Shown: positions 29,612 to 32,906 of the stretch, one piece after another
Position numbering within the stretch: position 1 is the stretch's first letter
Layout: each line of letters starts with the position of its first letter
DNA from: a virus
Direction: 5' to 3' (one strand)
DNA: 33,969 nucleotides
Virus record (IMG/VR): IMGVR_UViG_3300021368_000996
Location: 1 to 33,969 of that record
The notes under the pieces: model-generated
Told to the model about the DNA's origin: nothing
Database searches by the model: none
The model's input: the letters and a program-made list of their open reading frames with translations, nothing else
Made by a program: the position numbers and the translations under genes

Positions 29612-30151
29612 ATGCACATCTCCAACGTCAAAACTGCTACAATGGTCGGAAAGTTCGCATTGAACGACGGACCTTCCAAAGCACGACTTAAACTCAACTA
29701 TGAGAATCTTGATAACAAAGTTCTCAAAGATGATGCTGGTCGTGTATATCTCCTCGTCAAAGATGGTGAGATCATGAAGATCGGTGGCAGTGTCTCTAAA
29801 GGTGGTATCAAATCCACCATGTCATTCTATGTGTCCGCTAATACTGGACGCCCATCAATTCGTTCCTTTGGTATTAACCAACTGGTACATGAATCGATCA
29901 TGAGTGGCGCTGAAGTATCAGTTTATATGATTACTTCTGTACAGGTTTTTGCACCAGTTAAAGGTCTCTTTGGTGCAGAAACTATGTCCATCTCTGCCTT
30001 CAAAGAGATGGAAGAAAAATGTCTTCGTGACTATGTTGCTTCTGAGGGTTGTTATCCTGCTTGGAATTACCAAGAATCGGGTAAACCTTGGGAGCAATAT
30101 ATTCAGGAAGCACATGCTATAATTCTAACAAAGACTGCAAAACGCAAATGA
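29612..30151 (+). CDS. GIY-YIG/T5orf172-like protein
   Basis: 179 residues. GRVYLLVKDGEIMKIGGS (43-60) matches the two-strand GIY...YIG core as found in T5orf172-type domains (x-Y-x-L...x-K-I-G). Basic residues Lys63, Lys67 and Arg80 and the acidic cluster KEMEEK (131-136) are where GIY-YIG nucleases carry their Arg and Glu; the pattern is degenerate and activity is uncertain. The C-terminal part (YPAWNYQESGKPWEQYI) is aromatic-rich. Its TGA overlaps the ATG of an adenine methyltransferase. Options are a restriction-like nuclease partnered with the methylase, a homing-type nuclease, or a non-cutting DNA-binding protein. Confidence 0.5.
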   Translation: MHISNVKTATMVGKFALNDGPSKARLKLNYENLDNKVLKDDAGRVYLLVKDGEIMKIGGSVSKGGIKSTMSFYVSANTGRPSIRSFGINQLVHESIMSGAEVSVYMITSVQVFAPVKGLFGAETMSISAFKEMEEKCLRDYVASEGCYPAWNYQESGKPWEQYIQEAHAIILTKTAKRK

Positions 30152-31041
30152 AAACTCCACTCAGATACGCTGGCGGAAAATCCAAAGCATATAAAATTAT
30201 CACTGAACATCTTCCTGAAAAGTTTCCTAAGGATAGAATTATCTCCCCATTTTTGGGTGGTGGTAGTCTAGAATCTCGCTGGAGTTCTGAGTTAGGCATC
30301 AAGACTATTGGTTTTGATGCCTTTGAGCAATTAATTGTATTTTGGTGTATTCTGTTGCAAGATCCTCAAGGACTTGCAGATCGTTGTAGACATCTTGTGC
30401 CTACAAAAGAAGAATACAAAGCAGTCAAAGAAGAACTGCTGAAATGGAATATCACTCAGCAAATGTTTGCTGGTTATGGTGACAGATACAAGTATTATGA
30501 ACGTGAACCTATCTGTTTAGATCATAAGAACGCAGCAGCATATTATTATTTCAATCACAATCTTTCCTATGGACCTATGTTCTTGGGATGGATGAGTAAG
30601 ATCTACGAATCTCCTGAAAAATGGGAGCGTATGTGTAAACGTGTTGAAGAATATCGCAATCCAAATCTGACTGCGATGAAGGGTGATTATGCTAACACTC
30701 TGGATGAATTTAACTCAGACTTTTTGTATCTGGATCCTCCATATTATTTGGAAAAGGATAAAGATAACAAGATGTTCAAGGGGATGTATCCAAACTGCAA
30801 TTTTGCAGTGCATCATGATACTTTCAACCATGAGGGTTTGATGCTACAACTCTCTAGACATAAGGGACCATTTATTCTCAGTTACAATAATTGTGAGACA
30901 ATTCGTGACTGGTATGCAGAGTATGAAATTGTATATCCTGAGTGGCATTATTCATATGCACTAGGTGAGAAACGTATTGGCAAGAATAAAGTCAATAATG
31001 ATCCTAAGAAATCACATGAAATTCTAATTATTAAACGATGA
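30148..31041 (+). CDS. D12-class DNA N6-adenine methyltransferase (Dam-like)
   Basis: 297 residues from ATG 30148 (ATGA overlap); a start at 30088 inside the upstream gene is rejected. TPLRYAGGKSK (3-13) and ISPFLGGGSLE (32-42) form the SAM-binding N terminus, and YLDPPYY (194-200) is the catalytic DPPY motif. Order I then IV is that of alpha-group D12 enzymes such as Dam and M.DpnIIA, which methylate adenine, often in GATC. It may protect phage DNA from host or self-encoded nucleases. The target is not readable here. Coupled at both ends, ATGA to the cysteine-cluster gene. Confidence 0.9.
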   Translation: MKTPLRYAGGKSKAYKIITEHLPEKFPKDRIISPFLGGGSLESRWSSELGIKTIGFDAFEQLIVFWCILLQDPQGLADRCRHLVPTKEEYKAVKEELLKWNITQQMFAGYGDRYKYYEREPICLDHKNAAAYYYFNHNLSYGPMFLGWMSKIYESPEKWERMCKRVEEYRNPNLTAMKGDYANTLDEFNSDFLYLDPPYYLEKDKDNKMFKGMYPNCNFAVHHDTFNHEGLMLQLSRHKGPFILSYNNCETIRDWYAEYEIVYPEWHYSYALGEKRIGKNKVNNDPKKSHEILIIKR

Positions 31042-31601
31042 CAGATTTTGTACCAAGTAATGACTACAGAGAGTGTGGTGACTGCAACATGTGTTGCCAA
31101 GGATTTCTCCCCGCAAATATTCATGGATATCAAATGATGCAGGGAATCCCATGTCATTTTGCAAAAAATGATAGTGTTGGATGTGGTGGGTGTACAATCT
31201 ATGAAGATCGTCCACAATTATGCAGAGCATTTGAATGTGTCTGGAAGACATCACCTCAAGTAATTCCACAATGGATGCAACCAAATAAATCTGGTGTTAT
31301 TCTCTCTGCTAGAGAAGATAAAAACGAACAAACTGGTGAAGTCTATGAGTATATCAATATGAAAGAGACATTTGAACCAGTATCAGCACAAGTGCTGAAC
31401 CAAGTGTTAAGAACCTGTATGCATTATAATAAGAATCTAGAGTATGAAGTAAATGGCAGTTGGTTCTATCATGGTAACGGAGATTGGATTAATTATCACG
31501 TTGAAAGATATGGAGGACAGAAAGTCCCAGGCGGAAATATGCCAGAAAATCAATTAAATCAGCAGATCATTGCTCATGGTGCTGCCGAGGTCAGTGAATG
31601 A
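31038..31601 (+). CDS. YkgJ-like zinc/iron-chelating cysteine-cluster protein
   Basis: 187 residues. The N-terminal 70 carry nine Cys in the YkgJ (CxxCxxCC ... C ... CxxC ... C ... C) layout: CGDCNMCC (13-20), Cys39, GCGGC (49-52), and YEDRPQLCRAFEC (55-67) with the signature Y-x-x-RP-x-x-CR-x-F. The rest (FEPVSAQVLNQVLRTCMHY) is helical. The family is thought to bind zinc or an iron cluster, but its function is poorly known. Third gene of the operon with the GIY-YIG-like protein and methyltransferase; a terminator follows 8 bases after its stop. Confidence 0.8.
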   Translation: MTDFVPSNDYRECGDCNMCCQGFLPANIHGYQMMQGIPCHFAKNDSVGCGGCTIYEDRPQLCRAFECVWKTSPQVIPQWMQPNKSGVILSAREDKNEQTGEVYEYINMKETFEPVSAQVLNQVLRTCMHYNKNLEYEVNGSWFYHGNGDWINYHVERYGGQKVPGGNMPENQLNQQIIAHGAAEVSE

Positions 31602-31609
31602 AGTGGCAC

Positions 31610-31634
31610 AACCCCCTTGACTTGGGGGTTTTTT
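31610..31634 (+). terminator. Intrinsic terminator
   Basis: AACCCCC (31610-31616) pairs with GGGGGTT (31624-31630) around loop TTGACTT, followed by a run of Ts to 31634. It ends the methyltransferase operon. The loop contains TTGACT, the -35 box of the next promoter. Confidence 0.85.
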
Positions 31635-31667: not shown

Positions 31668-32906
31668 ATGCAACTTCGCCCCCATCAACAACGTGCATTT
31701 GATGCTATGCAAAGCAACAATGCAGGTCAAATTATTGTGCCTACTGGTGGCGGCAAGACTTACATCATGATTGCCGATACTCTCGCTCGTGCTGCACAAG
31801 GTAGCACAACAGTTGTTGTTGCTCCGCGTATTCTTCTCGCTAATCAGTTGTGTGAAGAGTTCATGGAGTTTGTGTCTGCTACATGGACGCATGTTTGTCA
31901 TGCTCATAGCGGTGAGACACATCACTTCAGCACAACAAAAGCAGACAAGATTGCTTTGTTCGCTAACACTGCGCGAGCAGCATCTGAGTCCTGCATTATA
32001 TTCACCACTTATCATTCTTTGCACCGCGTTGTTGAGAGTGGTATTGATATTGACACCATTTATTTTGATGAAGCACACAATGGGTGCGGTAAGCACTTCT
32101 TCACTAGCGTCTTTGCTACTGCTCAGTATGCTAAGCGTCGTTATTATTTCACTGCAACCCCTAAAACTGGTCGTGGTGTGAGTGTTGCTCGCGGCATGAA
32201 TAACACTGATGTTTGGGGTGGTGTGCTCTGCAATGTTCCTGCTAAGGAACTCATCGAAGCAGGTGCAATCGTTCCCCCTCGTGTTGTTCCTTTTGAAACG
32301 AATCGCACTCGCACTAAGCACAATGCACACGAGGTTGATGCTGACAATCTGAAGGATATGTTTGAGCAACTTGATGTATTCCAGAAACCTAAAGTTCTGG
32401 TTGCTGCTCCATCTTCTAAGGTTCTTGGCAATATGCTCGGACACACTGACATTCTTGAGTATTTCTACAAGAAAGGTTATGAAGTGATGCACATCACCTC
32501 TAAGTTCGGTGCTATCATCAACGACAAAAAAGTTGGTCGTGAAGAGTTCTTCACCACTCTGCAATCTTGGGGTGCTGATGACACTAAAAAGTTTGTGATC
32601 TTCCACTATTCTATTCTCAGTGAGGGCATCAATGTGCCTGGGTTGACACATACTATTCTGCTCAGAAATCTGCCTATTGTTGAGATGGCACAGACAATCG
32701 GTCGTGTTATCCGTGTGCATAAAGATGACCGCGCTGCTGTTACTGAAGGTCGCATCCCTGCTGGTGCATTTCACCTCTATAAAAAGCAGGAAGGTGTTGT
32801 TACTATGCCCACAGGTTACAAGATGGGTAATGCTATCGCGGCAAGATTGCAGAACGTTGTTAATCAAATCTTTCTAGAGGGCATCCCCCCTCTTGCCTAC
32901 TGCTGA
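31668..32906 (+). CDS. SF2 DEAH-type helicase
   Basis: 412 residues. Motifs in order: Q-like RPHQQRAFD (4-12), Walker A PTGGGKT (25-31), DEAH (134-137), TATP (162-165), motif V ILSEGINVPG (316-325), motif VI QTIGRVIR (342-349). It is a minimal two-RecA-domain helicase of the type III restriction/UvsW/RecG-like superfamily, with no obvious accessory domain, and shorter than T4 UvsW (about 500 residues). The role could be branch migration, R-loop removal or DNA repair. Under its own early-type promoter. Confidence 0.85.
   Translation: MQLRPHQQRAFDAMQSNNAGQIIVPTGGGKTYIMIADTLARAAQGSTTVVVAPRILLANQLCEEFMEFVSATWTHVCHAHSGETHHFSTTKADKIALFANTARAASESCIIFTTYHSLHRVVESGIDIDTIYFDEAHNGCGKHFFTSVFATAQYAKRRYYFTATPKTGRGVSVARGMNNTDVWGGVLCNVPAKELIEAGAIVPPRVVPFETNRTRTKHNAHEVDADNLKDMFEQLDVFQKPKVLVAAPSSKVLGNMLGHTDILEYFYKKGYEVMHITSKFGAIINDKKVGREEFFTTLQSWGADDTKKFVIFHYSILSEGINVPGLTHTILLRNLPIVEMAQTIGRVIRVHKDDRAAVTEGRIPAGAFHLYKKQEGVVTMPTGYKMGNAIAARLQNVVNQIFLEGIPPLAYC

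Follow-up and report, generated by a model that had tools for sequence, protein, structure and literature searches.

A predicted Type II restriction-modification pair and its cysteine-cluster neighbour in a T4-like cyanophage

Why should a cyanophage carry a nuclease-like gene, a DNA methyltransferase gene and a cysteine-cluster gene, each overlapping the next? The question is raised by a 34-kb viral contig (hereafter the window, the whole stretch of DNA analysed, positions 1-33969), which is part of the genome of a T4-like Synechococcus phage. The sequence-only reading of this DNA had described the three genes as coupled by ATGA overlaps and closed by a terminator, and the reading frames, their starts and the hairpin all match that description: the true start of the methyltransferase is the ATG at 30148, inside the stop of gene 1, and that of the cysteine-cluster gene is the ATG at 31038 (Table 1). 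The order of the three genes and their overlaps are kept in the isolates S-P4, Syn30 and S-E7, with protein identities of 98-99%. S-P4 and Syn30 are placed in Leucotheavirus (Kyanoviridae), and the window's phage is a T4-like cyanophage, by kinship lytic.

Table 1. Features of the locus and of related viral loci; positions without an L number are those of the window
Feature	Position	Strand	Description
Gene 1, nuclease	29612..30151	+	179 aa; GIY-YIG endonuclease, Hpy188I family, HpyAORF481P branch; predicted Type II restriction endonuclease
Gene 2, methyltransferase	30148..31041	+	297 aa; D12/alpha-class N6-adenine DNA methyltransferase; predicted modification enzyme of the pair
Gene 3, cysteine-cluster	31038..31601	+	187 aa; CxxCxxCC/YkgJ-like putative metal-binding protein; neighbour of the pair
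Terminator-like hairpin and T-run	31610..31630	+	7-pair stem, 5 G-C
UvsW-like helicase, locus anchor	31668..32906	+	phrog_16 DNA helicase, E 2e-82
NUC2	L061:2207-2911, L063:958-1662, L071:1245-1955 and relatives		upstream of the same methyltransferase, in the nuclease slot
Extra genes between nuclease and methyltransferase	L011:878-2080, L012:1139-2137, L013:3583-4713, L014:3658-4731		ParB/DGQHR-like by eye

Predicted activities of the first two genes

For gene 1, a GIY-YIG fold and homology to R.Hpy188I emerge from profile searches, AlphaFold, Foldseek and PADLOC. The protein matches the PHROG family phrog_1111, 'endonuclease' (E 3e-25), as well as the PADLOC model REase_II PDLC03493 (E 8e-5), which also recognises 13 of the 18 family members, and a search of the PDB with a profile built from 18 homologues recovers R.Hpy188I (3oqg; hmmsearch E 1.6e-4, hhalign probability 85%). 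The AlphaFold model, built on the homologue alignment, reaches a pLDDT of 87.8, and Foldseek ranks T4 endonuclease II (EndoII, 2wsh) and Hpy188I (3oqg) at the top with E values of about 2e-6; these are the only PDB matches below 1e-3, and the GIY-YIG domain of UvrC comes next. Structure prediction thus upholds the GIY-YIG half of the initial description, a GIY-YIG/T5orf172-like protein. The T5orf172 half falls away, as no Pfam family, T5orf172 included, matches gene 1 even at E<=5. NCBIfam gave no match, and a plasmid search found no homologues on plasmids.

The predicted catalytic residues of gene 1, whose equivalence to those of the Hpy188I family was read off alignments, are Y46, K56, Y73, R84 (the alternative Arg position), E134 and N152. 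Y46, K56, Y73 and E134 are invariant across the 18 homologues, and an Arg stands at position 84 or at the next residue in every row. This is the active-site set of the HpyAORF481P branch, namely Tyr, Lys in place of the YIG Tyr, Tyr, Glu and an Arg at the alternative position 104/105, and the gene is followed by an alpha-class PF02086 methyltransferase. No member of this branch with a demonstrated activity or recognition site was found in the literature searched.

Gene 2 belongs to Pfam MethyltransfD12 (E 5e-24), carries the DPPY motif and matches PADLOC MTase_II PDLC03281 (E 4e-76). It had been called a Dam-type methyltransferase. An adenine methyltransferase of the D12 alpha class is what Pfam and PADLOC bear out, whereas an assignment to Dam, with methylation of GATC, was rejected: the score against the NCBIfam model 'dam' (TIGR00571) is 68 bits, below the cut-off of 114.85, and gene 2 lacks the RYN..G.FNVPFG hairpin that marks GATC-recognising enzymes and is present in the GATC-type Dam of S-IOM18. 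A second match to gene 2 lies elsewhere in the record of each of the carrier isolates S-P4, S-E7 and Syn30. Motif depletion pointed to no candidate site depleted specifically in carriers of the pair; cyanophage loci are poor in CCGG, AGCT and GGCC whether or not they have the module. The window has no CCGG at all, where 17 would be expected, and shows a 5-fold depletion of AGCT, and since both are also scarce in cyanophage loci that lack the module, this scarcity is a general trait of the cyanophages examined.

A conserved pair and a changeable neighbour

The nuclease and the methyltransferase keep close company. They are adjacent in all 11 annotated phage records (in S-PM2 the pair spans the origin of the record), and all 23 IMG/VR nuclease loci whose flanks are long enough to check have the methyltransferase immediately downstream or no more than 1.3 kb away. 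On chromosome-like contigs of Bacteroidales (L042, L043) the methyltransferase comes before the nuclease on one strand, while on contigs from Nanoarchaeota MAGs (L041, L044) the two genes are convergent. A linkage that persists through three gene layouts, and in genomes of several kinds, suggests that the two genes function together. Together with the fold, the active-site residues and the profile matches, this conserved pairing, established by computation as they are, makes it very probable that genes 1 and 2 constitute a Type II restriction-modification pair, and it strongly supports the earlier suggestion that a nuclease joined to a methylase forms a unit of this kind. We infer that both proteins are active enzymes and that they share a common site.

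It is possible that gene 1 is instead a free-standing homing endonuclease, like the Seg proteins of T4, that spreads itself and sits beside a methylase by chance. T4-like phages often carry homing genes of the GIY-YIG type, and a T5orf172/MUG113-type gene does occur near one relative locus (L068:3-443). However, gene 1 itself shows no T5orf172 or homing-associated domain at E<=5, its nearest solved structures are Hpy188I and EndoII rather than I-TevI, and the partnership with a homologous methyltransferase recurs, with three different gene layouts, in viruses, Bacteroidales and Nanoarchaeota. Such a chance association therefore seems very unlikely.

A second scenario is that the methyltransferase shields phage DNA from host restriction, and that gene 1 is a degenerate nuclease, or one repurposed for instance for repair, with no function in restriction. 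Protective methylases are common among phages, the nuclease slot of the pair is exchangeable (see below), and copies of the methyltransferase stand without a recognisable nuclease at loci L075 and L076 and in the jumbo phage L007, which counts against a restriction-modification pair; those of L007 and L076 in particular would fit protection alone. However, the catalytic positions of the nuclease are invariant in the 18 homologues, its dN/dS of 0.07-0.21 indicates purifying selection, and loci that lack the GIY-YIG gene mostly have a different nuclease-like family in its slot. We consider protection alone to be improbable and retain the restriction-modification pair as the preferred reading. 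The two genes do have partly separate histories, since between the window and contig L009 dS is 0.34 in the nuclease and 2.7 in the methyltransferase; this, like the failure to see motif depletion specific to carriers, speaks against the pair.

The third gene behaves differently. Its product matches phrog_9155 (E 4e-82), a family of unknown function, and an AlphaFold model of the protein alone is of too low confidence to be informative (pLDDT 44). The conserved Cys and His residues (C13, C16, C19, C20, H29, C39, H40, C52, C62 and C67) fit its earlier description as a YkgJ-type metal-binding protein, with a Cys spacing similar to that of the Pfam family CxxCxxCC (PF03692), but the threshold of that family is not passed (E 0.09, 13.9 bits versus a cut-off of 23).

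Could all three genes make up one new system, with the cysteine-cluster protein as a metal-dependent third component, as the sequence-only reading had proposed? The ATGA coupling and the common terminator in Leucotheavirus-type phages would be in keeping with this, as would the viral contigs L009 and L010, where the cysteine-cluster gene also follows the pair. However, the nuclease and the methyltransferase are present at only 3 of the 80 viral loci of the cysteine-cluster gene. Co-occurrence thus holds for the two-gene unit, which is adjacent wherever this could be tested, and fails for the three-gene unit. In most isolates the cysteine-cluster gene is separate from the pair, and the pair for its part is usually found without this gene: in S-ShM2, S-CAM1 and S-CAM3 the cysteine-cluster gene is found between the gp45/gp44 replication genes, and in Tefnutvirus it lies beside another Dam and just upstream of the helicase gene uvsW. 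The carriers of all three genes form a single clade on the methyltransferase tree. A three-component system is thus extremely unlikely, and the cysteine-cluster gene is a lineage-specific neighbour rather than a restriction-modification component. Nor is the pair itself a new system, since it belongs to a published family of putative Type II restriction-modification systems (PMC2630997).

Partner exchange and the region upstream of uvsW

The methyltransferase does not always accompany a GIY-YIG nuclease. Among 38 viral loci of the methyltransferase, 23 have this nuclease and 8 have in the same slot an unrelated protein of ~235 aa, NUC2; of the others, 2 show only an insert gene before the contig ends, 3 run off the end of their contig and 2 have no visible nuclease. 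All the NUC2 loci found adjoin the same methyltransferase family, with the exception of one truncated contig. Searches of Pfam, PHROG, NCBIfam, PADLOC and the PDB returned no match of note for NUC2. By eye, its KPD(V/I)..SVK resembles a PD-(D/E)XK motif. The methyltransferases of L011 and L015 are 96-100% identical and their nucleases only 48% identical, and the near-identical methyltransferases of L062, L068 and L070, from the same clade, accompany NUC2; near-identical methyltransferases with divergent nucleases or with NUC2 imply that partners have been exchanged. The nuclease and methyltransferase are, moreover, often separated by one of three types of extra gene, which belong to phrog_2615, to phrog_2558 (with a DGQH motif) or to a third type without matches. 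Relatives of these extra genes flank other methyltransferases in the isolates Syn19, S-CAM22 and S-RIM2, and do not flank methyltransferases in S-RIM8 and ACG-2014d. Syn19 has an annotated R.RsaI endonuclease with a methyltransferase (PADLOC REase_II, E 2e-11).

Of 26 dereplicated loci on viral contigs with a uvsW relative, 14 have a methyltransferase at most 4 kb upstream of it, and 3 of 26 have one downstream (raw counts, 35 of 63 upstream versus 8 of 52 downstream), figures that count contigs rather than independent events and cover the methyltransferase families collected in this analysis. The DNA upstream of uvsW has the look of a hotspot where cassettes resembling restriction-modification systems are exchanged. 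Several unrelated methyltransferases with candidate nucleases are also seen upstream of the UvsW helicase (L178-L257; L173, L174, L034). Beside a GATC-type Dam there is a protein of ~199 aa (L034:2375-2974, from S-IOM18; L033; L039; H200 of Tefnutvirus) that looks MutH/Sau3AI-like by eye; it matches Pfam MvaI_BcnI weakly (E 0.04) and has no match in the PDB or PADLOC.

Perhaps, and we put this forward only tentatively, T4-like cyanophages maintain a hotspot of restriction-modification cassettes upstream of uvsW, in which one methyltransferase family alternates between the GIY-YIG nuclease and NUC2, often with one of three extra genes (one of them with DGQH) in between, such cassettes taking the place of modified cytosine in telling self from host DNA. 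If this hotspot holds, marine cyanophages would be a store of shuffled restriction-modification cassettes, possibly including a new nuclease family. The apparent hotspot and NUC2 are the parts most worth following.

Proposed role and comparison with known systems

If the pair works as predicted, the methyltransferase would mark phage DNA at a site that contains adenine, and the GIY-YIG endonuclease would cut at that site when the mark is lacking. Most probably this would serve to attack the DNA of the host, or that of a competing phage, while the phage's own DNA is spared; the pair would then be a restriction-modification counterpart of EndoII and hydroxymethylcytosine in T4, and of the restriction-modification pairs of chloroviruses. 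In the window's lineage the cysteine-cluster gene would be carried on the same transcript and have a different job. We rate the chance that host DNA degradation is the main role of the pair at slightly under even. The same biochemistry might instead be aimed at rivals, to exclude them, and the results fit both roles alike. The isolates Syn30, S-P4 and S-PM2 allow one to ask how a T4-like cyanophage could break down host DNA without harming itself.

In T4, EndoII starts the breakdown of host DNA (PMC6071114), the phage's DNA is protected by modified cytosine (PMC6071114, PMC1564403), and the degradation has been likened to restriction-modification (PMC1564403). The model of gene 1 suggests the same fold as EndoII, the product of denA (Foldseek E 2e-6, TM 0.69-0.75 on the target). 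However, the two proteins are 17% identical, and T4 relies for self-protection on modified cytosine, with no linked methyltransferase. For chloroviruses, host DNA degradation is the presumed task of their restriction-modification enzymes (PMC7019647), whose genes resemble the pair in that methyltransferase and endonuclease are adjacent in a lytic virus. The likeness is one of gene arrangement; chloroviruses differ in having a eukaryotic host, and they package their endonucleases in virions. The R.RsaI-like cassette of cyanophage Syn19 shares the overlap of endonuclease and methyltransferase genes and, in related contigs, the same region upstream of uvsW, whereas its nuclease and methyltransferase families are unrelated to those of the window.

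Compared with Hpy188I, the window's nuclease has an Asn (N152) in place of a Gln. Its features agree with those of the HpyAORF481P branch, in which a Lys replaces the YIG Tyr, the phosphate-binding Arg has shifted to either of two neighbouring positions and an alpha-class methyltransferase lies next to the gene (PMC2630997): the window's nuclease has KIG for YIG, the alternative Arg and a PF02086 alpha-class partner. The S-PM2 nuclease and M.SspSPM2ORFAP were tabulated within this branch in 2008 as a putative Type II restriction-modification system (PMC2630997). The window's nuclease is a variant 37-41% identical to the S-PM2 type (about 40% to the tabulated S-PM2 protein), from which the window's pair also differs in its operon linkage to the cysteine-cluster gene. 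What had been singled out as a candidate for a new system thus contains a pair from an established, if putative, family.
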